64,000 nt of DNA from Saprospiraceae bacterium (lineage in GTDB: Bacteria > Bacteroidota > Bacteroidia > Chitinophagales > Saprospiraceae): the NCBI GenBank assembly GCA_021604865.1, contig BQJU01000013.1, positions 62,001 to 126,000 on the forward strand, in the 5' to 3' direction. Both the position numbers and the translations under genes were made by a program. Under the pieces are notes generated by a model. The model searched no databases and was not told where the DNA came from. It saw nothing but the letters and a program-made list of their open reading frames with translations. Below are positions 29,555-59,458 of the stretch, one piece after another. Numbering within the stretch: the stretch's first letter is position 1; each line of letters begins with the position of its first letter.

Positions 29555-30460
29555 CTATTTCACTAACGGTTTGATGTAAATATTCAAAAACAGGAAAAAA
29601 CAAGCCAGGAAATAGCCCAACATACCTCCTGCCAATCCATATTTCACAATCGCTCCCGTATTAAATTGCGCCTTGGGTAAAATCAGGAAATTATCTATCG
29701 GTATGACATTTTCAGGATAAGAAAGATTGCCCTCCAGATCACTTTTTCTTTGCATCATTTCCCGGGACATACTCAGTAACTCATAGGCATTTTTGCCCTC
29801 AGAATTTTCTATGGTAACGCCAGATTTTTCTTGCTCACCAGATGGTTTTCCGGCATATAATTGGACCAAAACAGAATCAATCGTTTTTAGTTTAAAGTTG
29901 ATATATTTCAATTCTTCCTGCCAATTTTTTTTCTTGAGGTCCAGTCGATCAGCCGTAAATGGGTTGCTATTGAAATAATAGGTCAACCCCTGGCGAAGGC
30001 TATCCTCATCAATTAACTCCGATAGATTTACGGTAACAATAAAGGGCTCCTTACGCATGGTATAATTATTTACCAATGGTTTGCCCTGGCTATCTGTAAT
30101 ATTTATACGGTTGATTTTTTTAAGCTGGGCATTTGTCAATAACAAAAGTTCAGTCCCCTTACCGGCAGGATCATATTGAAGCAGGGCATTTAATTTTTCC
30201 ACCATATCGCCAAAAATCTTGGGGTGCAATTCACCATATACAAAAGTAGTAGACATGGAAAACTCCTGCGCACGAACGTAAAGCCAGCCTACCGAAATCA
30301 AGGCAAAAATCGCGATCAAGGCCCAACTCAGGCGCCAATGCCTGATGATAACATCCCTAAAAAATCGAAAGCTTTTGTATATCCCATTGATCCAAGCCAG
30401 CGCGTGTTGTTGTAAATCGCGCCAGCTGATTATTTCACTATCCTCTTTTTCTGAAACCAT
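29555..30460 (-). CDS. Wzz-like polysaccharide chain-length regulator
   Basis: The 301-residue protein has two membrane spans, one after a cytoplasmic N-terminal segment (about residues 41-62, WALIAIFALISVGWLYVRA) and one at the C-terminus (about 270-293). A periplasmic domain of roughly 200 residues lies between them. That topology is characteristic of polysaccharide co-polymerases that set chain length. No C-terminal tyrosine-kinase domain is present. The ATG at 30460 was preferred to an upstream in-frame start that would intrude on the promoter. First gene of the leftward EPS operon. Confidence 0.72.
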   Translation of the reverse strand: MVSEKEDSEIISWRDLQQHALAWINGIYKSFRFFRDVIIRHWRLSWALIAIFALISVGWLYVRAQEFSMSTTFVYGELHPKIFGDMVEKLNALLQYDPAGKGTELLLLTNAQLKKINRINITDSQGKPLVNNYTMRKEPFIVTVNLSELIDEDSLRQGLTYYFNSNPFTADRLDLKKKNWQEELKYINFKLKTIDSVLVQLYAGKPSGEQEKSGVTIENSEGKNAYELLSMSREMMQRKSDLEGNLSYPENVIPIDNFLILPKAQFNTGAIVKYGLAGGMLGYFLACFFLFLNIYIKPLVK

Positions 30461-30481
30461 AATTAAACAGATTGTTCCCGC

Positions 30482-30489
30482 CAAATATA
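30482..30489 (-). promoter_or_regulatory. Candidate -7 element TATATTTG, leftward EPS operon
   Basis: On the minus strand TATATTTG matches TAnnTTTG exactly and lies 21 bases upstream of the Wzz-like ATG. No convincing -33 element was seen. Confidence 0.45.
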
Positions 30490-31872: not shown

Positions 31873-32939
31873 AGGTACTGATGCTAGCCCGTCCCAATTT
31901 GCTAACCGATCCGGGTGGAGATACCATCCAGGTGCTGCATACTGCGGAGGCTTTACGCCAAAGAGGACTCATTATTGACATCAATCCATCACGTCCGGAA
32001 TATAAAAAATACGACCTACTTCACTTTTTTAATGTCATCGATCCCGAAGATATTTTAGGACATTTACAAAAAACCACCAAACCTTATGTCGTCTCGACCA
32101 TTTATGTCGATTATCAGGAATATGACCGTTATCACCGCCGGGATATTGTGGGCATAGCCAATCGAGTGTTGTCTTATCACGGTGTGGAATATCTGAAAAC
32201 GGTAGGTAAATGGTTACTAAAAGGAGAAAGGTTAAGTTCCTATAGCTACCTCTGGCAGGGTCACCGTCGATCTGTTGTAAAAATCCTCAAAGGCGCTTCT
32301 TGTCTCCTTCCCAATTCTGAAAATGAATACCGTCGGCTGGTCAACGATTTTGGTATGGAGCAGGAATATGTGGTGGTTCCCAATGGTGTTTCGATAGAAA
32401 AATTCAAAACTGTTCCCGAGCAGGACCGTGCAAATATTCTCTGTGTCTCCCGCATTGAGGGGCGAAAAAACCAGTACAATCTGATCAAGGCACTAAAAGG
32501 TACCGGGTTAATGCTCAAGCTGATTGGCAATCCAGCAAAAAACCAGCAGAACTATTATCGCCGTTGTAGAGCGATTGCCGATGATCAGGTAGAGTTCCTG
32601 GGATTTGTACCTCATGAAACACTTTGGCAACATTATGCAGAAGCCCAGGTACATGTACTACCCAGCTGGTTTGAAACCACGGGTTTATCTTCTTTAGAGG
32701 CGGCTTTGATGGGCTGTAAAGTTGTGGTTGGTGACCGTGGTGATGTTCGCGATTATTTTCAAAATGATGCCTGGTATTGTCAACCTGGCGACCCTACATC
32801 CATCCGAAATGCAATACTCGAAGCCTATCACGCGCCATATTGTAGCGAACTGGCCAATCGGATAATTTCTCAATATAATTGGCAAAATGCTTCAAACTTG
32901 ACATTTTTTGCCTACCAGAAAGCCCTAACTTGCGCCTAA
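31869..32939 (+). CDS. Family 4 glycosyltransferase
   Basis: The 356-residue GT-B protein starts MKVLMLARPNLLTDPGGDTIQ. It has an interdomain segment VVPNGVSIEKFKTV and the C-terminal donor-binding region with ILCVSRIEGRKNQYNLIKAL, the VEFLGFVP strand, VHVLPSWFETTGLSSLEAALMGC (E-x7-E motif area) and GDRGDVRDY. It should transfer a nucleotide-sugar residue in the cytoplasm during repeat-unit assembly. It overlaps the polymerase gene by 4 bp. Donor and acceptor cannot be read from the sequence. Confidence 0.9.
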   Translation: MKVLMLARPNLLTDPGGDTIQVLHTAEALRQRGLIIDINPSRPEYKKYDLLHFFNVIDPEDILGHLQKTTKPYVVSTIYVDYQEYDRYHRRDIVGIANRVLSYHGVEYLKTVGKWLLKGERLSSYSYLWQGHRRSVVKILKGASCLLPNSENEYRRLVNDFGMEQEYVVVPNGVSIEKFKTVPEQDRANILCVSRIEGRKNQYNLIKALKGTGLMLKLIGNPAKNQQNYYRRCRAIADDQVEFLGFVPHETLWQHYAEAQVHVLPSWFETTGLSSLEAALMGCKVVVGDRGDVRDYFQNDAWYCQPGDPTSIRNAILEAYHAPYCSELANRIISQYNWQNASNLTFFAYQKALTCA

Positions 32940-32978: not shown

Positions 32979-33749
32979 ATGATAAGATTTGACAGATTGA
33001 CGTTGAACAAGGAAAAAATGCGTCTGGATTACCTGCTTGCTGAGCCGTTTCCACACCTGATCATTGATGACTTTTGTGAGACCGATAAATTGGAAGCGCT
33101 ACTTGCAGAAATGCCAGATATTAATACCAAGAGCCGGGATTATGTCTTTGCAGCAAACAAATTTGAAAAGTCGAAATTTTGGCAGCTTTCGCCCAGATTT
33201 GAAACCTTATACCAGGATTTAATTTCTGATACATTTCAGGATTTTTTGCGTTTCATTACCAATGAAGCTGTCTTTATGGATAACAAATTTCATGGTGGCG
33301 GTATCCATCAAGGAAAAGAAGGCAGTTTCCTGGATATGCACCTGGATTTCAACTACCATCCTTTGCATAAGTTTTGGTATCGGAATCTAAATATCCTCCT
33401 ATACCTCAATAAAGGATGGCAGCCGGAACACGGTGGCCACTTAAAATTGAAAGACTTAAGAACAGGAGCGTACAAAGAAATCGGTGTGCCATTTAATCGT
33501 CTGGTGATCCAGCAAACCAGAAACTATACCCTACACGGATACGACCATATTCGCTTCCCTTCGGGAAGTTTTCGTACCTCCATCGCTGGCTACGCTTATA
33601 GCCAACATCAATATCATATCGAAAAACCAAGGACAACTGATTGGTTTGTTCCCTCTAATCAACCTGTCAAAAAATTGCTGGCCAGAATTTACGATCCGGC
33701 GGTAAAACTCAAAAATGCATTCTTCGGTAGCGCAACTGCCAAAAATTAG
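32979..33749 (+). CDS. 2-oxoglutarate/Fe(II) oxygenase in EPS operon
   Basis: The 256-residue protein has the 2OG-Fe(II) jelly-roll signature. The metal ligands fit His121-x-Asp123 (FLDMHLDFNYHP) and distal His186 (NYTLHGYDH), with Arg199 (GSFRTSIAGY) as 2-oxoglutarate binder. It resembles the prolyl-4-hydroxylase-like group that hydroxylates peptides or small molecules. Its place inside the rightward glycan operon, 39 bp after a glycosyltransferase and 3 bp before another, suggests it oxidises a sugar or substituent of the polymer or modifies a glycan-linked protein; this is inference. Confidence 0.82.
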   Translation: MIRFDRLTLNKEKMRLDYLLAEPFPHLIIDDFCETDKLEALLAEMPDINTKSRDYVFAANKFEKSKFWQLSPRFETLYQDLISDTFQDFLRFITNEAVFMDNKFHGGGIHQGKEGSFLDMHLDFNYHPLHKFWYRNLNILLYLNKGWQPEHGGHLKLKDLRTGAYKEIGVPFNRLVIQQTRNYTLHGYDHIRFPSGSFRTSIAGYAYSQHQYHIEKPRTTDWFVPSNQPVKKLLARIYDPAVKLKNAFFGSATAKN

Positions 33750-33752
33750 GAT

Positions 33753-34907
33753 ATGAGCCACGCTAATCAGAAAGGTTTGAAAATCGGAATATCCGGCTGT
33801 AGAGGTATTCCCAATCACTATGGTGGTTATGAACAATTCGCTCAATATTTATCTGAAGGGTTGCTGCAACGTGGGCATCAGGTTTTTGTCTACCAGTCTT
33901 CACTACATCCTTACACTCAAAATCAATGGCAGGGCGTGCAACTCCTCAGAAAATTTGATCCCGAAGATAAGCTGGGGCCTTTCGGACAATTTATATATGA
34001 TTTCAACTGTCTGATTGACGCAAAAAAAAGAAATTTTGATGTGCTCCTACAATTAGGATACACCAGCAATACGATTTGGTACCCGCTTTGGGATCGGCGG
34101 GCCGTTCAAGTATTACACCTGGATGGATTGGAATGGAAAAGGAGTAAATATGGCCCTTTGACGCAACGCTTTTTGAAAAAAATGGAAGCCATAGCCACCC
34201 ATCAGGCAGATGTTTTGATTGCAGACTCCCCGGTAATCCAGTCACATACCCGGCAGCAATACGGGCGTAAGGCCATATTTATAGCCTATGGAGCCAATGC
34301 TCAACCCCAAACTGATAAAAAACATCTCGATACCTTCAACCTTACTCCTGGTCAATATTTCCTGGCCATTGCCCGCTTTGTTCCCGAAAACAACTTGCAC
34401 ACTATCATTGAGGGCTACCTGAAAAGCGCACAAAAACACCCATTGGTTTTGGTAGGATCCACACAAACAAAGTATGGAAAAGAGCTGTTCCAAAAATACC
34501 AGGACAAAAATATTTTGTTTGCCGGTGCCCTCTTCAACCAGGAAGTATTGGATAGTTTACGAGCGTATGCCAGCCTCTATTTCCATGGGCATTCCGTAGG
34601 CGGCACAAACCCTTCATTATTGGAAGCTATGGCATGCAGTGTTCCGATTTGTGCAAATGACAATGCTTTCAATCGGGCCATATTAGACGAACAAGCCTAT
34701 TACTTCAACACGCCGGATCAATTGAAAAATGCCCTTCTAAAAGTCGATTCAGATAAAAGGCTCCAGGCATGGAAAACAAATAATCTTCAAAAAATCAGGG
34801 CAGATTATCAATGGGAATACATTATCGAACAGGTGGAGCAATTGTTTTTTAAGGCATTAAACCGCCAGCATCCCCAAGTAGCCACTGAAATTAACATCAA
34901 CATTTAA
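33753..34907 (+). CDS. DUF1972-type family 4 glycosyltransferase
   Basis: The 384-residue product opens with GISGCRGIPNHYGGYEQFAQYL, the signature of the DUF1972 (rhamnosyltransferase-like) N-terminal domain. The GT-B C-terminal domain follows, with YFLAIARFVPENNLHTIIEGY, ILFAGALFNQEVLDSL and HGHSVGGTNPSLLEAMAC. Such enzymes build surface polysaccharide repeat units, often transferring deoxysugars. The gene lies 3 bp after the oxygenase gene. Substrate specificity is not readable. Confidence 0.9.
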   Translation: MSHANQKGLKIGISGCRGIPNHYGGYEQFAQYLSEGLLQRGHQVFVYQSSLHPYTQNQWQGVQLLRKFDPEDKLGPFGQFIYDFNCLIDAKKRNFDVLLQLGYTSNTIWYPLWDRRAVQVLHLDGLEWKRSKYGPLTQRFLKKMEAIATHQADVLIADSPVIQSHTRQQYGRKAIFIAYGANAQPQTDKKHLDTFNLTPGQYFLAIARFVPENNLHTIIEGYLKSAQKHPLVLVGSTQTKYGKELFQKYQDKNILFAGALFNQEVLDSLRAYASLYFHGHSVGGTNPSLLEAMACSVPICANDNAFNRAILDEQAYYFNTPDQLKNALLKVDSDKRLQAWKTNNLQKIRADYQWEYIIEQVEQLFFKALNRQHPQVATEININI

Positions 34908-34931: not shown

Positions 34932-36185
34932 TTGATTGATAAAACACATATCAGCAAAATTCTTTTTCTGCTTATCCCATTCAGCCTCTGCTGGTCATTG
35001 CGGATAAATACGTTTGTTATTATCCTGTATATATGTGTAGTGCTTTGGTCAAATCCACTTTTAGATGCCCTAAAAAATGCAGCCAGACAAAAATGGTTGT
35101 ACCCTTTTCTGGCTTTGTATTTGCTTCATATCCTGTCGCTGCTATGGACTCAGGATATCGAACATGGACTATTTATTTTGGAAAAAAAAGCAAGCCTCTT
35201 CCTATTACCGATAGCCATTGCTATGGATTTGCAGATCAAAAAAGAAATGGTCTATCAAGCCATGTTCAGCCTTATTATTGGTTGCAGCCTGGCGCTTTGG
35301 TTTTGTAGCATCTATGCCTGCTGGAATTATCTGCAAATTGCCGATACCACCGTTTTTTTCTATCATGAATTGGGCGCTCCTCTCGACAAATTTAATGCGA
35401 TCTATTTCTCCTTTTATGCTTTTTTAAGCCTGGTTTTCCTATTTGAACTAGAAAGAAAAAGTGAATTATTTCAAGGCAAAAAATGGCTGCAGGCACTACT
35501 GTTATTCAGTTTATTAGGCGGATTGGTACTATTATCCTCCCGATTGTTTATCCTGTTAACTCTTCTGTTTTTGCTATTTATTGGTTTGCGGCGATTCCAG
35601 AGTGGTGCCTTCCCCTGGCGATACAAACTGACGGCTATACTTGCATTAATATTTTTAGGTATTGGTATCTTATCTACCAGCTTCCCTCAACAGCGATTTA
35701 AGGAATTACGGGGATCGGATTTCAGGGTTTTGCAGCAGGAAACCTTCCATTGGGATACCCCATTTAACGGCTTAACCCTACGTCTTTTGCTTTTAAAATT
35801 TGCCATGGAAATTCTGGCAGAAAAACAAGCTTTTTTAGGTGGCGTAGGTGTCGGAGATGCACAAAACGAATTAGACCAAACCTTTATAAAACACAATTTA
35901 TACCACGGCAATGCCGAATTAGGCGACCAGGGGTATTTGGGCTATAATACCCACAATGCGTTTATGGAGCTATGGTTGCAGATTGGCATTGGGGGTCTGT
36001 TTTTTTTTACCATTATCCTGGGGCAGGCTTGGGGTTTTAGTTTAAACACCGGTTATTATGCATTGGTATTCATGGTTTTAGCGATAACAGGATTTGCCCT
36101 AATTGAGGGCATATTGGAGCGACAAAGAGGCATTGTATTGATCACCTATTTTCTTTCAATCTTTTATACCGGCATGAAACAATGA
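34932..36185 (+). CDS. O-antigen ligase/polymerase-like membrane protein
   Basis: The 417-residue protein has about 10-12 spans and a hallmark GYNTHNAFMELWLQIGIGGLFF segment near the end, the 'H-N-x-x-x-E' region of the Wzy_C/WaaL family. The large periplasmic loop precedes it. It either ligates the finished polymer to its acceptor or acts as a second polymerase beside the one at 30631. There is no early ATG: an in-frame TAG lies at 34923-34925, so translation most likely starts at the TTG at 34932. The 3' end overlaps the next gene by 4 bp. Confidence 0.8.
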   Translation: MIDKTHISKILFLLIPFSLCWSLRINTFVIILYICVVLWSNPLLDALKNAARQKWLYPFLALYLLHILSLLWTQDIEHGLFILEKKASLFLLPIAIAMDLQIKKEMVYQAMFSLIIGCSLALWFCSIYACWNYLQIADTTVFFYHELGAPLDKFNAIYFSFYAFLSLVFLFELERKSELFQGKKWLQALLLFSLLGGLVLLSSRLFILLTLLFLLFIGLRRFQSGAFPWRYKLTAILALIFLGIGILSTSFPQQRFKELRGSDFRVLQQETFHWDTPFNGLTLRLLLLKFAMEILAEKQAFLGGVGVGDAQNELDQTFIKHNLYHGNAELGDQGYLGYNTHNAFMELWLQIGIGGLFFFTIILGQAWGFSLNTGYYALVFMVLAITGFALIEGILERQRGIVLITYFLSIFYTGMKQ

Positions 36186-36913
36186 AACAACAGCCGTTCA
36201 ACAAAGAGGTGGGATTTCCATTAACCGATCGACATTTCCGGAAGGAAGCCCGCTATGCTATTCTCTGGCAAGAAAAAGCGGTGAGTCGGCCCTACTATTT
36301 TTTAAAACGAATCATGGATACTGGGTTGGCTATTGTACTCCTTGTATTTGTGCTTTCGTGGCTGATCCCCCTTTTGTGTTTGATCATTTTCATCGATACA
36401 GGAGCACCGATGTTTTTTGTGCAAAAAAGAGTAGGGCTAAATGGGAAAATTTTCTTTTGTTATAAATTAAGGACCATGTATTCCAAACAGGGAAACATCA
36501 ATAAAAAGCCCTCTCGGCTAGGTCAATTATTACGAGATCACAAATTGGATGAATTGCCCCAAATAGTGAATGTCCTTCGTGGTGACATGAGTATGGTAGG
36601 GCCTCGGCCACACATGCTCAGCGATCATGAAATTTTCAGTCAGGCCATTGGCAAACGATATCACTTGCGGCACGTTCTAAAACCAGGCATAACCGGCCTA
36701 GCTCAAATTGGCGGTTATGAAGGTTCCATTACTTCTTTGCACAAATTGCGGGGACGCATTCGTCTCGATTTGTTTTATATCAAAAACTGGTCTTTGGGTC
36801 TCGATTTTTTGATTATTTTTAAAACCATTGGACACATTCTAAAAGGCATTTTGCGAAAGCAGAACCAGGAAAAAAAGCCGGAACAGATGGTTCATCACGA
36901 TAGAAATAAATGA
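36182..36913 (+). CDS. Initiating sugar (undecaprenyl-phosphate) transferase
   Basis: This 243-residue polyisoprenyl-phosphate hexose-1-phosphate transferase has one hydrophobic hairpin (about residues 48-72), then FFVQKRVGLNGKIFFCYKLRTMY, the catalytic block KLDELPQIVNVLRGDMSMVG with PRPH, and KPGITGLAQIGGYEG. It should start repeat-unit synthesis by loading a sugar phosphate on the lipid carrier. An N-terminal stretch of ~45 residues precedes the core, and the usual multi-span N-terminal domain of WbaP/CpsE is absent, so it is of the small (PglC/WcaJ-core) kind. It overlaps both neighbours by 4 bp. Confidence 0.92.
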   Translation: MKQQPFNKEVGFPLTDRHFRKEARYAILWQEKAVSRPYYFLKRIMDTGLAIVLLVFVLSWLIPLLCLIIFIDTGAPMFFVQKRVGLNGKIFFCYKLRTMYSKQGNINKKPSRLGQLLRDHKLDELPQIVNVLRGDMSMVGPRPHMLSDHEIFSQAIGKRYHLRHVLKPGITGLAQIGGYEGSITSLHKLRGRIRLDLFYIKNWSLGLDFLIIFKTIGHILKGILRKQNQEKKPEQMVHHDRNK

Positions 36914-37845
36914 GAAAACTGGAAAAAGAAATAGTCAAAACGCTACTTTATTTCGATATTTTCTCCTTCCCTTTGAAGCAGGATGAAATACGTCGTTATT
37001 GTAGTATCCGACTGAATACCGATGATTTGTCAACTCCACTTTCCCACTTGCTCAGTAAGCAGCACATATATCGTTTTGGCAATTACTACCAATTAAACAC
37101 CCAAAAGGAACGCATCATAAACAGGGAAAAAAAGCACCATATTTCTCTCCAAAAGCTGAAAATTGCCCGCCGTAGTGCCTGGATTATCAGTCAGTTTCCC
37201 TTTGTAAGCGGGGTTGCTGTTTCTGGTTCCCTTTCTAAGTATTCCGCCGATGAAAAGGCCGACATCGACTTTTTTATTATTACCCATGCCAACCGACTTT
37301 GGGTCTGTAGAAGTTTGTTACATATCTTCAAAAAATTAACCTACCTGTTTGGCAAACAACATCACTTCTGCATGAACTACTTCCTTGATGAAAATGAACT
37401 GGAGCTCAAAGACAAAAATATTTTTACAGCCATTGAAAGTATTACGGTAATTCCGTTATACGGGACAAGGTCGCACCAACAGTTTTTTGATAAAAACCGC
37501 TGGCTGACCGAATACCTGCCAAACAGCTATCCCGAGATTAAACTGAATGGTCAGGTTGACAACAAAAGAACATGGATTAAAAAGATTGGCGAATATTTTT
37601 TTGCCGGCCAATGGGGCAATTGGGTCAACCTATTTTTACTCAAATTTACCCTTTGGTGGTGGCGTATTAAATTTAAAGGTAAGGGGTACCCGATGCAGTA
37701 TTTTAACACTGATTTCCGCTCCACTCCTGGGGAATCCAAAAATCATCCCAACGATTACCAGAGGAGGGTCATGAATGAATTTGATCAAAAAGTAACGGTG
37801 GCCGCTGAGCAAATGGGCTGGAACCACGTCAATCAAAAAAGTTAG
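36910..37845 (+). CDS. Nucleotidyltransferase-fold protein at end of EPS operon
   Basis: The 311-residue product has an N-terminal winged-helix-like region (residues 1-75) and then a pol-beta/minimal nucleotidyltransferase core, AVSGSLSKYSADEKADIDFFI, with the G-S ... D-x-D metal-binding pattern. The rest is helical and basic, with a Trp-rich hydrophobic stretch (FTLWWWRIKF). Similar proteins recur at the end of Bacteroidota polysaccharide operons, but their substrate is unknown. It overlaps the sugar transferase gene by 4 bp, so it is part of the operon, and its last 17 bp overlap the convergent heme-lipoprotein gene. Confidence 0.65.
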   Translation: MRKLEKEIVKTLLYFDIFSFPLKQDEIRRYCSIRLNTDDLSTPLSHLLSKQHIYRFGNYYQLNTQKERIINREKKHHISLQKLKIARRSAWIISQFPFVSGVAVSGSLSKYSADEKADIDFFIITHANRLWVCRSLLHIFKKLTYLFGKQHHFCMNYFLDENELELKDKNIFTAIESITVIPLYGTRSHQQFFDKNRWLTEYLPNSYPEIKLNGQVDNKRTWIKKIGEYFFAGQWGNWVNLFLLKFTLWWWRIKFKGKGYPMQYFNTDFRSTPGESKNHPNDYQRRVMNEFDQKVTVAAEQMGWNHVNQKS

Positions 37846-48922: not shown

Positions 48923-49034
48923 AATAGTTTGTTGTAAACCACTTGAAAGAGTTTTGATAAGATTCGAAATTGAAAGCAGGTTGCACTTATCAGCAGCTAA
49001 TATTTAAACCGTTATTCCTGCTTATATCCCAGGA

Positions 49035-50732: not shown

Positions 50733-52322
50733 TCAAAGTGCCATCCGCCGAAGCGTATAAAACCCTACTCCCCTACCTTCATCAGACAAATAAATGACCT
50801 CATCCTCATTCAACCGCATCGGGCTGCGTTTTTGGCCCTTTGAATCAGAGATTTGTCTACCCCGATAATAAATTTGATTGCCAGAAAGGTATACCTCTTT
50901 ATCAGGACGTATCACATCCGTGGTTTTAAAGATATTCTCCTGGAGGCCGTTTTGATTTAAATGTTTAAAAATGAGTTGGTCATTTTCATAGCGATACGAA
51001 TGAATGATGCCCAAATTGTTATTTGGCAGGTAATAGTCGCCTACCTTTTGCTGAGGGAAATCAACTATTAAACTTTTACCAAATAATAAAATACCGACAA
51101 AAACGACAGTTTTCACATCCAAGGTTGGCCGTAAAATCCAGATCAGCATTACAAAAAGACCAAGCATCGCATAAAGCCGGGGAAACTGCAACAATAAAGG
51201 ATCATCATGTAACCAATATACTGGTACATTACAGATAAACAACAATAAGAACAGCAACAAAATAGTGGTGATTATTCCAGGTTTTTGCCACGAAAGGACC
51301 GCCATAAAAAGAGGAAGCAATAACAATAAGCTGTAACTGGAGCCATAAGCTGCCAATAAATTCCCGGCCAGCAAAACCAATGCAAAATGCAGTATAGCAG
51401 GAACATTTTTCATCCTTAGTACAAGGAATGTACCTCCTAAAACCATACATTGAAAAAGGCCATGAAATACAATAGCTAAGATAGGCAAATGCATGAAAGG
51501 CTCTGGATTATACAATTGATCTTTGACAAAGCAGGATTTCAGCAAGACAGGCATAGATTGGAACAATATCGCAAAGGGGTTGTGGATTTCGCCTTGAAAT
51601 AACCGGGGCAAGATATAACTAAAATAATCCGTGGTCACCATCGGTGGTAAAAAGAGGTAAGTGGAAAAGGATAAAAACGAACTGATCAAAAAAGTAAGCC
51701 AGCATGTTCGCTTATCTCTTTGGAAGAACAAAAATAGCAACACAATGCCTGGAAAGATCTTCATGGCAATAGCCACCGACCATAAAATCGCTGCCCCATA
51801 AATCCGATGCCTACCCCATTGGCGGTAAGCCTCCAATAAACAAGCCAATACATAAAGATAGGATTGGCCCTGATAAAAATTATTTAACAAAGGCATATAA
51901 AAAATGAGAGGAGCCAGTAAAAGCAGTGCTTGGTGCTCTAGCTTGAGGTGTCGAAGCAGTAAACAATACGCCACAATAAACAACAACAACCCTATCAAGC
52001 CAAAGTAAAACTTAGCCCAATAAATATCTTTAATCAAAGCAAAGGGGCTGTATAACAGTACACTAACAGGTGGTACCGGTGTATAATTAACAAAAACCGT
52101 TTCGGGTGAGCGTTGATTCGCCAGCTGATTAAAGGAATAGGGGTCGTACACACGCTCATCAAAGTCGCCTTCTAACCACAATTGACTGGCGTAATAATAA
52201 TTGGCAAAATCACCAATGGGGTGTTTAACGGTCTTCGTTAGAAAATAAATGCCTAACAACAACAAAAGTAATGCACTAAACCATGCCCAGTAGATTCCTT
52301 GATTATTAGAGTTGTTTCGCAT
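50733..52322 (-). CDS. GT87/DUF2029-like membrane glycosyltransferase
   Basis: The 529-residue protein has about 11 spans and the polyprenol-dependent mannosyltransferase layout. After the first span comes HPIGDFANYYYASQLWLEGD, an acidic first loop like those carrying the catalytic Asp in GT-C enzymes, and then NFYQGQSYLYVLACLLEAYR. The last ~110 residues are soluble. It should transfer a sugar from a lipid-linked donor on the outer face of the inner membrane. The ATG at 52322 was chosen; a TTG five codons earlier is possible. It overlaps the upstream methyltransferase by 17 bp. Its first codons coincide with a repeat end (see 52301-52318). Confidence 0.75.
   Translation of the reverse strand: MRNNSNNQGIYWAWFSALLLLLLGIYFLTKTVKHPIGDFANYYYASQLWLEGDFDERVYDPYSFNQLANQRSPETVFVNYTPVPPVSVLLYSPFALIKDIYWAKFYFGLIGLLLFIVAYCLLLRHLKLEHQALLLLAPLIFYMPLLNNFYQGQSYLYVLACLLEAYRQWGRHRIYGAAILWSVAIAMKIFPGIVLLFLFFQRDKRTCWLTFLISSFLSFSTYLFLPPMVTTDYFSYILPRLFQGEIHNPFAILFQSMPVLLKSCFVKDQLYNPEPFMHLPILAIVFHGLFQCMVLGGTFLVLRMKNVPAILHFALVLLAGNLLAAYGSSYSLLLLLPLFMAVLSWQKPGIITTILLLFLLLFICNVPVYWLHDDPLLLQFPRLYAMLGLFVMLIWILRPTLDVKTVVFVGILLFGKSLIVDFPQQKVGDYYLPNNNLGIIHSYRYENDQLIFKHLNQNGLQENIFKTTDVIRPDKEVYLSGNQIYYRGRQISDSKGQKRSPMRLNEDEVIYLSDEGRGVGFYTLRRMAL
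52301..52318. repeat. Repeat end inside the start of the GT87-like gene
   Basis: TTATTAGAGTTGTTTCG shares TAGAGTTGTTTCG with the left arm of the inverted-repeat element at 48852. It encodes the residues just after the initiator Met of the GT87-like protein. Confidence 0.4.
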
Positions 52323-52986
52323 TGTCAGTTGTTTCAATGCTAAAAATCAAAAAGCGTTCTGCCAGCCGGTATTGCTGATGAACCACCTTCATTTGGTATC
52401 CTTTTTCTATGGCAATGCATTCAATGGCATCAAGCGCACAAGCTTCGGAAAGGATCATGTATACCAAGCTATTGGAATCAATAAAATCTTCAAGGCCGGT
52501 AAAAAAATGATGGAAAAACTGGAAATCAGCGCCAGTATACCAGGCAAATTCTGCCAAACTGTTAGGCGTCCCCTCAAAGAAAGGAGGATTAACAATGATG
52601 AAATCGAAAAATTGTTTTGGAATGGTGTTAAAAACATCCGACTGTAAGGTATTAATAATCAACTCATTGTCCAAAGCATTCCTTTCTGTACAGGCTACAG
52701 CCAAAGGGTTCACATCAACCGCCCAGGCTGCTGCTCCTTGCTGTGCCACCACCAGGGATAATAGACCACTTCCACAGCCTATTTCCAATACCTTTTTATT
52801 GTTTAATGCTTGTTTTTTTAGAAAGGCGGCAAATACTTTACTACTACCAAAAAAGGCGGGATGAAATACTTCTTTTTTGATTTGTAATTGCAAGCCTTCA
52901 TAACGATAGGTTCGGTCCTGTGCCAGATACCTTTGCAATAATGGCTTATAGAAACGGCTCATGCATTTTCTTATCAAAGTCCGCAT
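52306..52986 (-). CDS. Class I SAM methyltransferase (HemK-like NPPF motif)
   Basis: The 226-residue protein has the SAM-binding loop VLEIGCGSGLLSLVVA (motif I), the acidic end of strand 2 in AWAVDVNPLAV, and FIIVNPPFFEG, the NPP-F/Y motif IV usual for N-methyltransferases such as PrmC/HemK or adenine methylases. Here it lies in a glycan/lipid-like operon, so its substrate may be a small molecule. Its ATG overlaps the stop of the upstream radical SAM gene (TAATG), a sign of translational coupling, and its end overlaps the next gene by 17 bp. Confidence 0.82.
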   Translation of the reverse strand: MRTLIRKCMSRFYKPLLQRYLAQDRTYRYEGLQLQIKKEVFHPAFFGSSKVFAAFLKKQALNNKKVLEIGCGSGLLSLVVAQQGAAAWAVDVNPLAVACTERNALDNELIINTLQSDVFNTIPKQFFDFIIVNPPFFEGTPNSLAEFAWYTGADFQFFHHFFTGLEDFIDSNSLVYMILSEACALDAIECIAIEKGYQMKVVHQQYRLAERFLIFSIETTDNAKQL

Positions 52987-54494
52987 TAGAAGCCCTCTTT
53001 TTCAGGTTGCCTATATTTTAACCAGAACCGTTGTAAAGCCTTTAACTCGTAAGGATAACTATAATGCTTGGTACGGTATCGCCAGGAAGATGCACCGCGG
53101 ATAACCTTTCGTTGCAAAGTGCTTAATTTGATATCCGAAACCGTTGGATGATAAGCATTGAGGACGGTTTCAAAGTTTTTGATTTTATCGACCACCCGTT
53201 TAGTCAACCAGGGGGTTAACGGATTTTTACGCAAATCAAATTGTTCCCATTCTGGTTGTAGCCAGTCTTCCAGTTTTTTGGGAAAAGAAAAGCCCTGCTC
53301 TTTAGCCTTTTCAAACATGGTAGAACCTTCAGTGGGCACCGGGCTATAGATGTAAATAATGATTTCCGTATCTGGGTTAATGGTTTTTACTTTACGGATA
53401 AACTCGGTTTCTGCGTCTACCTGTTTTAATGCTTCAGCCTCCGAATCAGCCGGCCAGCCAAGAACAAAAGAGTATTCCGGGATAATATCAAACTTTTTGA
53501 GCCTTTCGGCAAAACGAAGAATTTGACTGCCACTTTGTTTGCCGCCCTTATCCATAAATTGCAACAACTGATCACTACCCGACTCCGCGCCAAAAAAGAT
53601 CATTTTGCAACCTGCTTCCCGCATAATGGCCAAACTTTCATCGGTGTAGCGGTCCAGCGTATCAATACGAGCCTCGCCCCACCAGGTCATATTTTCGGGT
53701 TGGATCAATTTGGCGAAAGCCACCGTCCTTTTCTGAGAAACAAAAAAATTATTGTCGTGAAATTCGATGGCATCAGCTCCATAGGTATCTTTCAGGTATT
53801 TGATATCCTGGTAAATTTTTTCTGCTGATTTACCATTCCATTTAGTTTGATAAATGGGCACAACGGCGCAAAAAGCACATTTAAAAGGGCAGCCAAAACT
53901 GCTGTGATAGGCGATGGTTTTTTCGCCCAGATAACTTTTCCCCAAATAACGAGACAGTGGATAAAATTCATTCAACCGGTCATAAGGCAGGTCCGGTAAT
54001 TCGTCGTATTCATAAAGGATTTCTCTGGTGGTTTTGATCAATTGTCCATCTTGTAGAAATACCAGATTGGGGACAGATTCCGTGGATTCCCGATTGATAA
54101 CGGCTTTTATTAATTGCGGAAATGCCTTATCGCCAGGGCCATCCACCACATAATCAACATAACCGGAATCTAGCACGACCTGTTTATGATTCGAAGGAAA
54201 ATAACCGCCCCAAATATTGGTAATTTCTGGAAATTGTTGTTTTACCTGCCTGGTGATCGGTACCGCCTGATGCAGCTGCGGGCCAGGCATGACCGTACAG
54301 GCAAAAAATTGAAACTGGCCGCTTTGAAGGTAATCAAAAATCTTTTGTTGAGGGTCGGCTTCCAGGTTGCCATCTACTAACACCCAATCATAAATACCTT
54401 CAATACTAGCGGCAATTTGCAAGACAGAATTGGGTATTCTGGCTTTATGATTGGTTGCTTTCGGGTTAAATAAAATAACTGCAGGTGGTTTCAT
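52986..54494 (-). CDS. B12-binding-domain radical SAM protein (third copy)
   Basis: The 502-residue enzyme has an N-terminal Rossmann-like cobalamin-binding domain (about 1-150, ITNIWGGYFPSNHKQVVLDS) and a radical SAM barrel with the cluster motif SSFGCPFKCAFCAV (C-x3-C-x2-C). It has a helical C-terminal tail. This architecture is class B radical SAM, known for methylating unactivated carbon or phosphorus or for ring rearrangements. It is more divergent from the two upstream homologues than they are from each other. It lies 23 bp after the flippase gene and overlaps the methyltransferase gene by one base. Confidence 0.88.
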   Translation of the reverse strand: MKPPAVILFNPKATNHKARIPNSVLQIAASIEGIYDWVLVDGNLEADPQQKIFDYLQSGQFQFFACTVMPGPQLHQAVPITRQVKQQFPEITNIWGGYFPSNHKQVVLDSGYVDYVVDGPGDKAFPQLIKAVINRESTESVPNLVFLQDGQLIKTTREILYEYDELPDLPYDRLNEFYPLSRYLGKSYLGEKTIAYHSSFGCPFKCAFCAVVPIYQTKWNGKSAEKIYQDIKYLKDTYGADAIEFHDNNFFVSQKRTVAFAKLIQPENMTWWGEARIDTLDRYTDESLAIMREAGCKMIFFGAESGSDQLLQFMDKGGKQSGSQILRFAERLKKFDIIPEYSFVLGWPADSEAEALKQVDAETEFIRKVKTINPDTEIIIYIYSPVPTEGSTMFEKAKEQGFSFPKKLEDWLQPEWEQFDLRKNPLTPWLTKRVVDKIKNFETVLNAYHPTVSDIKLSTLQRKVIRGASSWRYRTKHYSYPYELKALQRFWLKYRQPEKEGF

Positions 54495-54517
54495 CCGGCT
54501 AAGTTATTAAAGTCCTG

Positions 54518-55723
54518 TTACTGAGCCAAGGATTTAATTCTGACCTGCCAGAATGCGACATTTCCAGCAATATAAGCCAATACGGCTGCAATCAATGCGC
54601 CACTAATCCCCAACTTGGGTATCAGCCACCAGCCTCCTAAGATTTTAATGGCTCCCATCATGATTAAGATGAGGCTTACCCGTTGTACCTGGTTTTGACG
54701 AAAGAGCATTTGGATACGGATCACCTGAAAGAAATATAAAAAGATCAAAGTGCCAGTTAGACAGTAGATCAAAATGCACAATTCAAAGGCATAAGCATAA
54801 TGCAACAACGCATAGATCATCAAGGCAAGCAAAGGGCTCAACAGCAAGCCAAAAGCCAGGAAGTTGCGTTCTATCTTGAACAAAACGCCCGCCTTCAGCC
54901 GGTAAACATTTTTGATAAAAGGTAATAAAACGGCTGACGCTAATAGGTGGCTGGATTGTACAAAACTGGATAGGACTTGATATTTCCCTAAAGCGGCGGC
55001 ATCCATTTTCAAGGCTAGCAAATACAATTCTCCTCTTGAAGCACCAGCGCCTGCTAAGACCAGGACTAAAAAGGGAAAGGCGGCTTTTAAAAAGTCAACA
55101 ACCTGAGTAGAATCTACTATTTTCCAGGAAATATAATGCCGGTTTAACAACCAATAAATCAACCCTTTAATTAATTCCGCCACCGCCATACACCACAAAA
55201 AAGTAGTCAATGTAAGTGGCTGCGTCAGAAACAAAGCAATCAACAGCAGAACAATGAGCAACTCTATTACCGCGCTCTGCCAAAAAAGTCTTCGATAAAC
55301 ATTCAGTGCTTCAAAAAATTGCCAGCTCAGCTGTGCCAACAACCAAAAAACAAGGATACTTCGGTCCAAAGCTCCCCAAGGTAAAAGGCCAATAATGATC
55401 ACAACAACTACGGCAATACCTCCCCTCCCAAGCATGGAGGCAACCAATACGTTTTTAATATTATCCGGTGACCGACTGTAGTTTCGCAGGAGAAAATCCC
55501 GGCTCCCCAAGTTGATCAGGGTGGCACACAGCTGTACAACCAACAGATATTGCACGTAAGTGCCCCAATAGACTTCTGAATACCATCGAACAACGGTAAG
55601 GGATAGGAGAATTCTAGTGATTGGAATTGCAAATTGGGACGTCAGTGCCTGCACGATTGCCCAAAACCGACGAGCGGGGATGCTGTTTAAGTTTTGAAGG
55701 TGGGAAAATAATCTACCTAACAT
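54518..55723 (-). CDS. Wzx-like flippase in radical SAM operon
   Basis: The 401-residue protein has about 12 hydrophobic spans and the oligosaccharide-flippase style beginning, with PITRILLSLTVVRWYSEVYWG and LINLGSRDFLLRNYSRSP early on. The sequence match to the family is weaker than for the flippase at 28229. It should translocate a lipid-linked product. The ATG overlaps the upstream radical SAM stop (TAATG). Its presence implies that the operon's product is assembled on a membrane carrier in the cytoplasm and exported. Confidence 0.75.
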   Translation of the reverse strand: MLGRLFSHLQNLNSIPARRFWAIVQALTSQFAIPITRILLSLTVVRWYSEVYWGTYVQYLLVVQLCATLINLGSRDFLLRNYSRSPDNIKNVLVASMLGRGGIAVVVVIIIGLLPWGALDRSILVFWLLAQLSWQFFEALNVYRRLFWQSAVIELLIVLLLIALFLTQPLTLTTFLWCMAVAELIKGLIYWLLNRHYISWKIVDSTQVVDFLKAAFPFLVLVLAGAGASRGELYLLALKMDAAALGKYQVLSSFVQSSHLLASAVLLPFIKNVYRLKAGVLFKIERNFLAFGLLLSPLLALMIYALLHYAYAFELCILIYCLTGTLIFLYFFQVIRIQMLFRQNQVQRVSLILIMMGAIKILGGWWLIPKLGISGALIAAVLAYIAGNVAFWQVRIKSLAQ

Positions 55724-57117
55724 TAACCCCGAATTCTTTCCAGATTCATGCCCAATCGCGACATCATTGCCCGGAATTTCACTGGAGCCGCTGAGGCAAA
55801 TTTACCCGCTCCATTTAACCGCTGAAAGGCCATTTCCCGTTGTATCCAGTTCATGGCATGGTGATAGTATTTCCGGTTATACGCACGTTTAAAATCAATG
55901 TCCCGATCAGTGGATTCCGACCAGTCCAGATCGGTAATGAATTTTGATTCTACTTCTTCATAAAAGGGGGTGCCTTTGATGGGATAAGCCGTAGTAAGCG
56001 TAAAAACATCCGGCTTGGCCTTTTTCAGATAGTCCAGCGTCTCCAGAATATCGGCTTCCGTTTCACCGGGATATCCCAGCATAATAAAGTTGCCTGCCTC
56101 TATACCATACGCTTGCGAGAGCTGGACCATTTCCGTCACTTTTTTCACCTCTGTCATACGATCCATGGCATCCAGCACCTTTTGGGAACCGCTTTCAGCA
56201 CCAATCCAGATCCTCATACAGCCACTTTCCTTTAGCAGCTTCACGATTTCCTCATTCATGCGGTCAGCACGGGAGATGGCCTCATAAGGAATGACGAGAT
56301 CCCGTTCTTTAACCAATTGAGCAAAAGCCCTCATCCACTTGTGGTTGACCGTGAATACATCATCGACATACCAAATTTGATCAAAGTCGTAATTGGTGCG
56401 AAGGTATTCCAACTCATCCACTACTTTTTCGGGGCTTCTACGCCGGTAAGAGCGCCCGTAAACCGCCCTGCTGCACCACTTGCAAGCATAAGGGCATCCC
56501 CGCATGGTGCTCATCGTCACCATAGCATATCCGTGGTGTTTACGCCAGGTATCGAAATAGCGTTGCCAATCGATTTTTTCCCGGGCTGGCATTGGCAATT
56601 CATCCACATTGGTAATAAATGCTCGCTCAGAAGTGGTCGTGACAGCTCTATCTTTATCCAGGTAGGCAATACCGGGTATATGATCGAGATCCATATTGTC
56701 CTGCTCGCTGAAATGCCGGACTAGTTCGAGCATAGTTATTTCTCCCTCTCCAAAGGCGATGATGTCGGCTCCGTGTTTGAGAAAATTTTCTTTATGGTGG
56801 CGTACTTCTGGCCCTCCTAATACTATTCGGCAATGTTTTAGGGTGGGCTCGTTTTTAATCAACTCAATGATCTTCAATACCTGAAGTTTTGTCATCAGGT
56901 TGGTATAAATGCCGATCAAATCAGGAGGTGATTGTTTCAGCTGTTTTTGCAACTGATTAAACGTAGAAAAGGTAGTATCAAAAATCTCATTGGCAAAACC
57001 ATGTTGCTCCAGGTAGGCCGCAATGTATTGCAACCCCAGTGGCGGATATGGCTTCATGATTTGTTGCTCTTTTTTATCCTCTCCTAAGAAATAAGCGTGT
57101 GTCAATAAGATTTTCAT
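55723..57117 (-). CDS. B12-binding-domain radical SAM protein (second copy)
   Basis: The 464-residue protein begins MKILLTHAYFLGEDKKEQQI and has an N-terminal cobalamin-binding domain (LGGPEVRHHKENFLKHGADI, FGEGE) and a radical SAM core with GCPYACKWCSRAVYGRSYRR. It is clearly paralogous to the protein at 57983-59458: LLTH...KPYPPL, GCPY-C-WC...YG-SY--RSP and FDxIWxxDDxF are shared. Class B enzymes with this architecture often act as cobalamin-dependent methylases. The next gene starts within its stop codon. Confidence 0.88.
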   Translation of the reverse strand: MKILLTHAYFLGEDKKEQQIMKPYPPLGLQYIAAYLEQHGFANEIFDTTFSTFNQLQKQLKQSPPDLIGIYTNLMTKLQVLKIIELIKNEPTLKHCRIVLGGPEVRHHKENFLKHGADIIAFGEGEITMLELVRHFSEQDNMDLDHIPGIAYLDKDRAVTTTSERAFITNVDELPMPAREKIDWQRYFDTWRKHHGYAMVTMSTMRGCPYACKWCSRAVYGRSYRRRSPEKVVDELEYLRTNYDFDQIWYVDDVFTVNHKWMRAFAQLVKERDLVIPYEAISRADRMNEEIVKLLKESGCMRIWIGAESGSQKVLDAMDRMTEVKKVTEMVQLSQAYGIEAGNFIMLGYPGETEADILETLDYLKKAKPDVFTLTTAYPIKGTPFYEEVESKFITDLDWSESTDRDIDFKRAYNRKYYHHAMNWIQREMAFQRLNGAGKFASAAPVKFRAMMSRLGMNLERIRG

Positions 57118-57210
57118 CTTTATTTATATATATAGTGATACAGAGACATTGTGAGGTGGTGAGATAGTGAGAAGGTGAAGTGGTGAGATATCCAGCCGCA
57201 CCTCCGCGCA
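57118..57210. other. Intercistronic region with degenerate GGTGAGA repeats
   Basis: This 93-bp gap within the operon has four imperfect units of GGTGAGA/GTGAGAAGGTGAAG on the plus strand (57147-57190). It is the only sizeable gap in an otherwise overlapping operon and may be a repeat insertion. No promoter was recognised. Confidence 0.35.
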
Positions 57211-58005
57211 TCAATCTTTCCTCCGAAATTCTACCACAAAATGATCGGCATAATCTGCTAGCCAAGGCAAGGAAAAAACCGAATCAAGTTTTTCTAAAAC
57301 AGCCAGTCGTTTTTTTCTCTCAGCAAAATAATGCTCCAGATAAGACGGGGGGACAAAAAAGCCAACCGGATAAGCCTGGATAAACTGGAAATTGGCGGCA
57401 AAAAAACTGCTAATCTCCTTTTTGTTATAATACCATACCTCGATTTTTTGACCATGCAAATTGACTAACGACGGGCTTTTTAACCGCCGATGAGCCTGAT
57501 CCACCCGTCTTTTCATAAAATAATAAGCCCTTTCCCACAAACAATGTTTACTCATATACACTAAAAACAAATGACCGTCGGGTTTTAGCAAATCCGAAAA
57601 GATTTGGCCCAGTTTTCTGCTTTTTTCAGGCGATAAACAGTTCAGGCCACCAAAATTGGAAAAGATCAAATCAAACTGCTGACCTTTCAGTTTTTCGGCT
57701 AGCGCCATAAATCCAGCCTGCAAAAAAGTCAACTTTAAGTAGCCATCCTCCTGTTTCAATTTTTCCGTTCCCATCCGGATCATATCTGAGGAAATATCCG
57801 TTGCAAGCACCCGGTGTCCCTGTTTTGCGAGATATATCGCGTCTTCACCAGTACCACAGTTGATTTCCAGAATATCGCAAGAATTAGGAAAGTCCCGTTG
57901 AAAAAACTTCCTGACTTGTCTCCTTTGAGATTGCCCAATTGCAGCATGCGTAAAGTGCTCATCATAATCAGCAGCATACTGATCAAAGGCTTGAGGCTGC
58001 TTCAT
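57211..58005 (-). CDS. Class I SAM-dependent methyltransferase
   Basis: The 264-residue protein has the ubiE/methyltransf_11-type core: AFDQYAADYDEHF at the N-terminus, SAM loop ILEINCGTGEDAIYLAKQGHRV, LATDISSDMI and FDLIFSNFGGLNCL. The glycine loop is a slight variant (EINCGTGE). It probably O- or N-methylates an intermediate of the pathway encoded by this operon. Its start overlaps the 3' end of the upstream radical SAM gene by 23 bp. Confidence 0.85.
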   Translation of the reverse strand: MKQPQAFDQYAADYDEHFTHAAIGQSQRRQVRKFFQRDFPNSCDILEINCGTGEDAIYLAKQGHRVLATDISSDMIRMGTEKLKQEDGYLKLTFLQAGFMALAEKLKGQQFDLIFSNFGGLNCLSPEKSRKLGQIFSDLLKPDGHLFLVYMSKHCLWERAYYFMKRRVDQAHRRLKSPSLVNLHGQKIEVWYYNKKEISSFFAANFQFIQAYPVGFFVPPSYLEHYFAERKKRLAVLEKLDSVFSLPWLADYADHFVVEFRRKD

Positions 58006-59458
58006 AGTTGATGACTTTCAGTTGCCGTTTGGCCAGATATGACGATGGCGTATAATACAATATCGATAAGGTTTTTTTTAAGTTTTGCCACTTTACATGA
58101 GTGGGATACCGCAATAACCCTTTGAGTTGTTCCTGAGCATGTTTTTTACGAAATTCCTGATGAACAAAATGGTGCAACTGTTTATAAAATGCTGAAGAAT
58201 AGGAATTTTTAAACATTAGATCCAAGTCCTCGGAATCGGTCCAGTTGGTCTTGCCGGGCAAGTCATTTTTCACCATTTCAAAAAACTTTGTGCCAGGCAA
58301 GGGATAGGAGACTGAAATACCAATATCGTGGGGCAATAATTCCTTAATCAGTGCAATCGTTTTCCGAATATGTTGTGCTGTTTCATTCAGGTAGCCAAAC
58401 TGGATAAAAAAGCAGGGCTTAATGCCACAAGCCTTGAGTTTATGAGTGGCTGTTCTGATCTGCTCAATGGTAATGCCTTTATCCATCGCATCCAGGATTT
58501 CCTGGGCTCCGCTTTCAACACCCATCCACACTTCTTCACAGCCTGATGCTTTGAGTGCGTCGATGTACTGATCTTTCACCAGCAAATCTGCTCTGGATTG
58601 AATTTTATAGCGAAGCTGCAGTCCTTTTTCCCGAACCAGTTCTGCAAATTCGATCACCCAGCTGCGTTTCAGTCCAAATATATCATCACAAAACCAAATA
58701 TGGTCGAAGCTTGTATTGGCCTGTAGCAACTCTATTTCCCTGATTACATGGGCTGGGCTACGCATCTTGTAAGAATTGCCGTAGATGGGCTTAGCACACC
58801 AATTGCATTTATAGGGGCAACCTCTGGTGGTTGCAATATTTACTGAATATTGATTCCATTTTGTCCAGGATTGTTGATAGGGTTTAAAGTCAATCAAATC
58901 CCAGGCTGGCAATGGCAAGGCATCCAGATCCTGCATCACGGGCCGGTTGGCGTTCCTTTGAAAATGGCCATTCTTTTGCCAGGCCAGGCCAACTACAGAT
59001 TGCAAATCATCTCCAGCTTCCAGTGAATTCAGAAGGTCGATCAACGTTGCCTCGCCCTCTCCTAATAACACATAATCTATCCCATTTTGTAAATAATCTT
59101 GCCAGCGGTCAGTCGCATCAGAACCGCACATGATCACCTTACAACCCCTGTCTTGAGCGGCCTTAGCTATATGCCAGGCGGCTTCTCTCATATTCGTTAG
59201 GCACATCTTGGTCAGGTAATTAAAACCATCATCAAAAATGACCAGAATATCAGGCTTTTGAGCATCCAGAACCGGCAAAATATCCCCTGGCCCATCGGCA
59301 AACATGCTGTCAAAAAAGGCTACATCATATCCGGCATCTCTCACCATCGCCGCCGCCTGGATGCTCATCAAGGGTGGATAGGGTTTGTGCCAGGCTTCCT
59401 GTTTGGGGTCCAATCTAAGTAAATAAGAATGGGTCAACAGAACGGACCGTTGCTTCAT
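57983..59458 (-). CDS. B12-binding-domain radical SAM protein (first copy)
   Basis: The 491-residue protein begins MKQRSVLLTHSYLLRLDPKQ, aligning with the second copy's N-terminus, which is why I chose the ATG at 59458 over those further upstream. The cobalamin-binding domain (KVIMCGSDATDRWQDYLQNG, YVLLGEGEATL) is followed by the radical SAM core TRGCPYKCNWCAKPIYGNS and FDHIWFCDDIFGL. It is the first gene of the seven-gene operon and overlaps the methyltransferase gene by 23 bp. Class B radical SAM proteins catalyse radical methylations or carbon-skeleton changes; the substrate is unknown. Confidence 0.88.
   Translation of the reverse strand: MKQRSVLLTHSYLLRLDPKQEAWHKPYPPLMSIQAAAMVRDAGYDVAFFDSMFADGPGDILPVLDAQKPDILVIFDDGFNYLTKMCLTNMREAAWHIAKAAQDRGCKVIMCGSDATDRWQDYLQNGIDYVLLGEGEATLIDLLNSLEAGDDLQSVVGLAWQKNGHFQRNANRPVMQDLDALPLPAWDLIDFKPYQQSWTKWNQYSVNIATTRGCPYKCNWCAKPIYGNSYKMRSPAHVIREIELLQANTSFDHIWFCDDIFGLKRSWVIEFAELVREKGLQLRYKIQSRADLLVKDQYIDALKASGCEEVWMGVESGAQEILDAMDKGITIEQIRTATHKLKACGIKPCFFIQFGYLNETAQHIRKTIALIKELLPHDIGISVSYPLPGTKFFEMVKNDLPGKTNWTDSEDLDLMFKNSYSSAFYKQLHHFVHQEFRKKHAQEQLKGLLRYPTHVKWQNLKKTLSILYYTPSSYLAKRQLKVINYEAASSL

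Follow-up and report, generated by a model that had tools for sequence, protein, structure and literature searches.

A conserved Saprospiraceae operon with three predicted B12-radical SAM enzymes, possibly one arm of a surface-glycan pathway

We analysed a 64,000-nucleotide stretch of contig BQJU01000013.1 (assembly GCA_021604865.1, positions 62,001 to 126,000) from a Saprospiraceae bacterium, referred to here as the window. Between positions 50733 and 59458 it carries an operon of seven minus-strand open reading frames (ORFs), encoding three proteins with B12-binding and radical S-adenosylmethionine (SAM) domains (rSAM-A, rSAM-B and rSAM-C), two class I methyltransferases (MT1 and MT2), a MOP/Wzx-like membrane protein (hereafter the flippase) and a membrane glycosyltransferase of family GT87. 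They are transcribed in the order rSAM-A, MT1, rSAM-B, flippase, rSAM-C, MT2, GT87 (Table 1). An original prediction for this DNA had named the same set of genes; all seven ORFs lie where it placed them, and its domain calls hold.

The coordinates also agree with the overlaps that had been predicted. A TAATG overlap at 55723 couples rSAM-B to the flippase gene and another at 52986 couples rSAM-C to MT2, while rSAM-A and MT1 overlap by 23 bp and MT2 and GT87 by 17 bp. The description of the genes as overlapping or abutting applies to these four joints, but not to the remaining two, as the flippase and rSAM-C genes are spaced 23 bp apart and MT1 and rSAM-B 93 bp (57118-57210). The longer gap contains CTCAC-type simple repeats (CTCACCACCTCAC-type, with 5 near-matches in the window versus 0.6 expected). 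It looks like a local insertion, because MT1 and rSAM-B overlap in a genome of another genus of the family (G688, locus L134; MT1 ends at 5169 and rSAM-B starts at 5166). A mobile repeat spread through the genome was rejected as its origin, since it occurs only once in the genome. Terminator and sigma-70 promoter scans gave nothing above chance, and neither a cobalamin riboswitch nor any other Rfam element was found in the window.

The three radical SAM proteins score above the Pfam cut-offs for both the Radical_SAM domain (PF04055, 29.5 bits) and the B12-binding domain (PF02310, 32.1 bits), with 67.3 and 32.9 bits for rSAM-A, 90.3 and 58.2 bits for rSAM-B, and 46.7 and 34.3 bits for rSAM-C, respectively. 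The CxxxCxxC motif is present in 48 of 49 rSAM-A, 30 of 30 rSAM-B and 43 of 43 rSAM-C orthologue entries, and the sole entry without it is a sequence split in its contig. The rSAM-A of one genome (G093, L060:5017-6474) appears as two ORFs of ~240 amino acids each, owing to a frameshift or, in this fragmented assembly, a sequencing error. Practically none of the entries has DxHxxG, the motif of His-on cobalamin proteins (0 of 49, 1 of 30 and 0 of 43 entries). Many cobalamin-dependent radical SAM enzymes are base-off rather than His-on, and the retained CxxxCxxC together with the missing DxHxxG therefore fits the expectation for base-off/His-off enzymes of this kind (PMC13331322). By domain content and motifs alike, we assign rSAM-A, rSAM-B and rSAM-C as cobalamin-dependent radical SAM enzymes. 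rSAM-C is the most conserved member of the operon, with orthologues of 43-74% identity across the phylum; rSAM-B orthologues within the order are 48-59% identical.

The nearest NCBIfam models of these proteins are BchE, HpnJ, PhpK, ApyD and the ladderane protein. For rSAM-A, the top matches are BchE (148.5 bits, cut-off 481) and HpnJ (143 bits, cut-off 578); rSAM-B matches PhpK best (169 bits, cut-off 600), and the ladderane model with 148.5 bits (cut-off 360). The cut-off of HpnR is likewise not reached. The three proteins resemble methylases of the PhpK/TokK/GenK/KedN5 type in their B12-binding and radical SAM layout, their CxxxCxxC motif and their lack of the lower His ligand motif, but lie far under all equivalog cut-offs. 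With BchE, HpnJ and the ladderane-type enzymes they share a BchE-like N-terminal layout; again the cut-offs are not reached, and the loci that carry the radical SAM genes (rSAM loci) showed no genes for bacteriochlorophyll, hopanoids or ladderanes. Assignments to these three pathways were rejected because of the cut-offs. Among solved structures, AprD4 is nearest to rSAM-A and rSAM-C, and 9ccb to rSAM-B.

MT1 and MT2 both carry class I methyltransferase domains (60.3 and 65.1 bits, respectively). An NPP[FYW] motif is found in 28 of 28 MT2 homologues and in none of the MT1 homologues. Enzymes that methylate planar nitrogen are marked by NPP[FY], so that MT2 probably acts as an N-methyltransferase. 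Neither Pfam nor NCBIfam yields a match for the flippase, and Pfam is likewise silent for all 7 family members examined. Its putative assignment comes from a profile-profile comparison with a Wzx-type set (hhalign 89%, E 2e-6, 347 columns, nearly full length), and 9 genomes have homologues at loci of this kind. An AF2 model, built from the window and L039 sequences only, is poor, with a predicted local distance difference test (pLDDT) score of 47.

GT87 belongs to the GT-C enzymes of the kind that take polyprenyl-phosphate sugars as donors at the outer face of the membrane. The operon protein matches the Pfam family with 56.3 bits (cut-off 25), and its profile finds the PimE structure 9dm5 (E 1.3e-8), although the similarity is remote and covers only a portion of the protein. 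In an alignment of 8 sequences D38 and K188 are invariant, and Y42, spaced as Y62 of PimE, is kept in 5 rows. PimE is a polyprenyl-phosphomannose-dependent mannosyltransferase with a catalytic D58, plus Y62 and K195 (PMC12041525), to which D38, Y42 and K188 appear to correspond. Both the score and the catalytic-type Asp and Lys place the protein in family GT87. Unlike PimE, it has an additional C-terminal segment (window 50733-51050) with the motif LSDxxRGxGFYTL, outside the Pfam GT87 stretch. The motif is common to the closest GT87 homologues, all of them at rSAM loci; the segment is absent from less closely related GT87 proteins that occur at some of these loci.

The same gene set was sought in other Bacteroidota. 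Using tblastn, we found all seven genes in identical order and orientation in G688, with identities of 67% (rSAM-A), 51% (MT1), 67% (rSAM-B), 49% (flippase), 72% (rSAM-C), 50% (MT2) and 45% (GT87). A genome of a third genus (G674) has MT2, rSAM-C, flippase, GT87, rSAM-B, MT1, rSAM-A and a putative polymerase-beta-like nucleotidyltransferase (NT, described below) within one 13-kb locus, interspersed with one acetyltransferase, one NKWYS protein and one opposite-strand gene; its congener G738 shows the same layout. Flippase, GT87, rSAM-B, MT1, rSAM-A and NT share one locus in G093, and rSAM-C, flippase, GT87, rSAM-A and NT are together in two genomes that are more distant within the phylum (L091 and L095). 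We further surveyed 62 genomes, with ORFs called mechanically and genes labelled by BLAST bit-score thresholds; the loci were picked by rSAM-B or rSAM-C, and neighbour frequencies are conditional on those genes. MT1 adjoins rSAM-A in 35 genomes, NT adjoins rSAM-A in 29, and MT2-rSAM-C and MT1-rSAM-B are adjacent in 23 each. rSAM-A occurs in 50 genomes, rSAM-B in 32, GT87 in 16 and the flippase in 9. The core consists of NT, rSAM-A, MT1 and rSAM-C, while rSAM-B, MT2, flippase and GT87 are less constant. Because gene order is conserved and the genes co-occur across genera, we conclude from these comparisons that the seven genes are a unit, as had been predicted, and not a chance assembly.

Elsewhere, rSAM loci also hold an amidohydrolase with its own methyltransferase, SPASM-type radical SAM, flavin-reductase-like, GT9-type and sulfotransferase-like proteins, and the product probably varies among groups around a shared radical-modified element. 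In f21-like genomes the amidohydrolase and a class I methyltransferase form a pair beside rSAM-C (L096:7033-8938, L146:11904-13777, L152:7630-9484 and others). A ~325-amino-acid protein with a weakly flavin-reductase-like C-terminus adjoins rSAM-C at two loci (L064:4995-5981 and L144:11482-12444), and is possibly an electron donor of the radical enzymes. No relative of rSAM-A was found among plasmid sequences, and viral contigs gave no match. rSAM-C has plasmid-borne relatives of only ~26% identity, in unrelated clusters of Streptomyces and Nocardia. There (L179:7892-10326 and L180:825-3250) the relative and another radical SAM protein, ~350 amino acids long, form a pair in a different type of cluster that also holds LD-carboxypeptidase, short-chain dehydrogenase/reductase and WYL genes.

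Besides MT1, NT is the commonest companion of rSAM-A elsewhere, and it is missing from the operon in the window. A genome-wide search located a single copy, 13 kb from the operon and inside a cluster for exopolysaccharide (EPS), where its start overlaps the end of the gene for the initiating sugar transferase (PGT). NT is ~316 amino acids long; its N-terminus resembles a winged helix, and it carries a GS...DxD motif of the polymerase-beta type (hG[GS]...[DE]x[DE]), of which the G and DxD are invariant in 13 sequences and GSxSK nearly so. Its score against Pfam Polbeta is 19.9 bits, below the cut-off of 26.9; matches in the PDB are weak, to MNT-type proteins (E 0.14-0.7), and an AF2 model built from the same two sources as that of the flippase has a pLDDT of 43.

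To measure co-occurrence, NT and rSAM-A/B were searched independently in 199 genomes of the order. NT is present in 28 and rSAM-A/B in 30, with both in 27 (27 of the 31 with either; p 6.6e-29). rSAM-C occurs in 18 genomes of this sample, each of which has rSAM-A/B as well (p 5e-18). These p values overstate independence because the genomes are related; the match between NT and rSAM-A/B is still nearly one to one. Such numbers bear on the idea that the genes are a loose set of exchangeable O-antigen-type accessories with no single product, which merely gather in polysaccharide islands. The flanking glycosyltransferases do vary by genome, and four genes of the operon (rSAM-B, MT2, flippase, GT87) can be missing, as a loose set would have it. 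However, the near-perfect co-occurrence of NT and of rSAM-C with rSAM-A/B, and an operon order held across genera at 45-72% identity, make this explanation very improbable.

Ten relatives have, at the rSAM locus, counterparts of between one and six EPS genes beyond NT. Nine are f21-group or neighbouring genomes in which the locus carries rSAM-A, rSAM-C and MT1 (L062, L063, L064, L066, L093, L144, L146, L147 and L152); in the tenth (L048), a Wzz-like gene is the sole shared EPS gene besides NT. Locus L062 reads GT4b, GT4a, Wzy-like, another protein, Wzz-like, Wzy, PGT, NT, rSAM-A, MT1, with the last four genes contiguous. The counterparts at rSAM loci are 40-51% (GT4a), 40-46% (GT4b), 37-44% (PGT) and 64-67% (2-oxoglutarate (2OG) oxygenase) identical to the window proteins, and the Wzy-type proteins are weakly similar (22-37%). 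The original prediction had set the operon apart from the EPS cluster. This separation is probably mistaken, with NT located in the cluster and PGT, two GT4 enzymes and Wzy sharing an rSAM locus in relatives. Most likely, the stretches at 27.3-37.8 kb and 50.7-59.5 kb are two parts of a single pathway, because NT sits in the EPS cluster and relatives unite EPS and rSAM genes. An initiating transferase, a Wzx and a Wzy are all predicted in the window, and are linked to the operon enzymes via the shared loci and NT.

We lean towards the hypothesis that a Wzx/Wzy-type surface-glycan pathway is split in the window, with the operon as its tailoring-and-export arm and the EPS cluster (27-38 kb) as the other arm. 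From the genes present, their intact cofactor motifs, their conserved order and co-occurrence, and the EPS genes at shared loci in relatives, we infer a substrate, an order of steps, a type of radical reaction and a flippase activity as follows. First, PGT and the GT4 enzymes would build an undecaprenyl-linked oligosaccharide; assembly of polyprenyl-linked oligosaccharides is an established function of these families. Second, rSAM-A with its near-obligate partners MT1 and NT, followed by rSAM-B and the rSAM-C/MT2 pair, would introduce radical modifications into a building block, either a sugar or a sugar nucleotide; alternatively, the B12-radical enzymes and the two methyltransferases may act on the lipid-linked unit. 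MT1 and MT2 would add conventional O- or N-methyl groups, and NT might activate or adenylylate a precursor, which is a guess from its motif. Third, the flippase may carry the lipid-linked unit outward. Finally, GT87 may add a last sugar on the periplasmic side from a polyprenyl-phosphate donor, either ahead of Wzy polymerisation and ligation or in their place.

The type of radical reaction separates two versions of this pathway. The strongest alternative to methylation is that the radical enzymes contract a ring or otherwise rearrange the sugar, by cyclisation or C-C bond formation, and so produce a carbocyclic or branched residue; OxsB and HpnJ are precedents for such reactions. BchE and HpnJ, both non-methylating, are among the best curated neighbours of the operon enzymes, and the best PDB match of rSAM-A and rSAM-C, AprD4, is a sugar-modifying diol dehydratase. 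Non-methylating cobalamin-dependent radical SAM enzymes on record act on nucleotides, hopanoids, lipids and porphyrins (PMC13142503). However, PhpK, a P-methylase, scores about equal to BchE for rSAM-B, and every match falls far short of its equivalog cut-off. Because characterised cobalamin-dependent radical SAM enzymes are predominantly methylases (PMC13142503), methylation at an unactivated carbon would be the likeliest reaction, and we consider the non-methylating version unlikely.

A different possibility, along the lines of the original prediction, is that the operon works independently of the EPS cluster on an exported lipid-linked small molecule or a membrane lipid, which would be methylated or rearranged by the three radical SAM enzymes, glycosylated by GT87 and flipped by the operon flippase. 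Consistent with this, the window, G688 and G674 keep flippase and GT87 within the rSAM operon, away from Wzy-type genes. The locus of Roseivirga sp. UBA6061 (L039) combines the rSAM trio, GT87 and flippase with a GT9 (by motif) and a sulfotransferase, and has no Wzy match; the NCBIfam neighbours of the radical enzymes include the lipid enzymes HpnJ and ladderane protein. Yet the near-obligate NT lies in the EPS cluster here and beside the initiating sugar transferase in L062, and glycosyltransferases recur at the loci, whereas no recurrent prenyl or fatty-acyl enzyme was seen. We give this possibility a low probability. We regard a glycan intermediate linked to a lipid as likelier than a modified lipid in free form, because NT, PGT, two GT4 enzymes and Wzy join the rSAM genes in one locus.

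Several observations weigh against the split surface-glycan pathway. The core of the EPS cluster is on the strand opposite to the operon, the 13 kb that separate the two are filled by apparently unrelated genes, and the EPS cluster already has a Wzx of its own. The flippase, with a putative MOP fold, is the weakest domain call of the operon, resting on the Wzx profile comparison. rSAM-B, flippase and GT87 are optional elsewhere. None of the three radical SAM proteins reaches any NCBIfam equivalog cut-off (best scores are mostly a quarter to two fifths of it), so that the reaction cannot be read from sequence. The 2OG oxygenase was rejected as a pathway-specific marker, as the family is widespread without radical SAM genes.

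Like Wzx/Wzy systems for surface polysaccharide or O-antigen, the window has an initiating transferase, GT4 enzymes, Wzx and Wzy_C, most of them with counterparts at the rSAM loci of relatives; unlike these systems, it adds a second flippase-like gene and GT87. We know of no described Wzx/Wzy system with two to three B12-radical SAM enzymes plus a Polbeta-like nucleotidyltransferase. Full-text searching, with most subscription papers outside its reach, turned up no paper on this gene set, in keeping with the original prediction, which knew of no described pathway with it. The parts are of known kinds (Wzx/Wzy assembly, cobalamin-dependent radical SAM enzymes, GT87), and their combination in a conserved module is, as far as can be told, undescribed.

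The radical-enzyme module is found in roughly 10-15% of sampled genomes of one order, and also in distant classes of the phylum. We tentatively propose, short of regarding it as probable, a phylum-wide, so far undescribed class of Bacteroidota surface glycans or glycolipids, in which as many as three B12-radical SAM enzymes, with NT as near-obligate partner, modify the repeat unit. If this is true, it would be the first dedicated multi-radical-enzyme tailoring pathway for a bacterial surface polysaccharide. The surface of the carriers is probably covered by a glycan with unusual modifications of radical origin, which seem not to have been described. Radical C-methylation and ring rearrangement of sugars have so far been mainly a theme of antibiotics; here, such chemistry would be a normal component of some bacterial envelopes, and the B12 requirement of these organisms partly an envelope requirement. 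The linked set of NT, rSAM-A, MT1, rSAM-B, rSAM-C and MT2 offers a concrete handle for finding the substrate.

Table 1. Genes of the operon and of the EPS cluster in the window.
Feature	Position	Strand	Observation
rSAM-A, B12-binding and radical SAM, 491 aa, CxxxCxxC, without DxHxxG	57983..59458	-	Pfam PF04055 and PF02310
MT1, class I SAM methyltransferase, 264 aa	57211..58005	-	Pfam PF13649
rSAM-B, B12-binding and radical SAM, 464 aa	55723..57117	-	Pfam PF04055 and PF02310
Flippase-like polytopic membrane protein, MOP/Wzx-like, 401 aa	54518..55723	-	Profile-profile match to Wzx-type set
rSAM-C, B12-binding and radical SAM, 502 aa	52986..54494	-	Pfam PF04055 and PF02310
MT2, HemK/MTS-type methyltransferase with NPPF motif, 226 aa	52306..52986	-	Pfam PF05175
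GT87 membrane glycosyltransferase, C-terminal LSDxxRGxGFYTL segment	50733..52322	-	Pfam PF09594
NT, winged helix-turn-helix and polymerase-beta-like nucleotidyltransferase	36910..37845	+	Single genome copy; GS...DxD motif
PGT, initiating bacterial sugar transferase	36182..36913	+	PF02397 178.3 bits
Wzy_C-type polymerase/O-antigen ligase	34932..36185	+	PF04932 37.4 bits (cut-off 31.7); homologues in rSAM loci
GT4b glycosyltransferase (DUF1972 type)	33753..34907	+	40-46% identical proteins at rSAM loci
2OG-Fe(II) oxygenase	32979..33749	+	67% / 64% identity in rSAM loci L064 / L144
GT4a glycosyltransferase	31869..32939	+	40-51% identical proteins at rSAM loci
Wzy-like polytopic protein, without Pfam match	30631..31872	+	36.6% identity to gene of rSAM locus L062
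Wzz-like two-transmembrane chain-length/anchor protein, without Pfam match	29555..30484	-	Inferred from terminal hydrophobic segments
Wzx, polysaccharide flippase of EPS cluster	28229..29548	-	PF01943 77.6 bits
GT2 glycosyltransferase of EPS cluster	27321..28232	-	PF00535 35.7 bits

Between the EPS cluster and the operon, a row of minus-strand genes (40743-50345) encodes an aldehyde dehydrogenase, an AAT-type acyltransferase overlapped by an ATP-grasp protein, a 926-amino-acid Orn/Lys/Arg decarboxylase, a nitrilase and a class-III aminotransferase. They probably form a polyamine or amino-acid amide pathway, and were rejected as parts of the pathway since rSAM loci elsewhere do not carry them. 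The minus strand immediately upstream of rSAM-A (59562-62303) encodes a TonB-dependent receptor together with a small, His-rich protein anchored in the membrane. The two probably serve in metal uptake, and they are not partners of rSAM loci elsewhere. The window also encodes Por_Secre_tail and TonB-type proteins, which along with the Roseivirga relative point to a host in the Bacteroidota, and, on the minus strand at 21132-22391, a protein with an EAD11 effector-associated domain, which is usual in conflict- or defence-type proteins.

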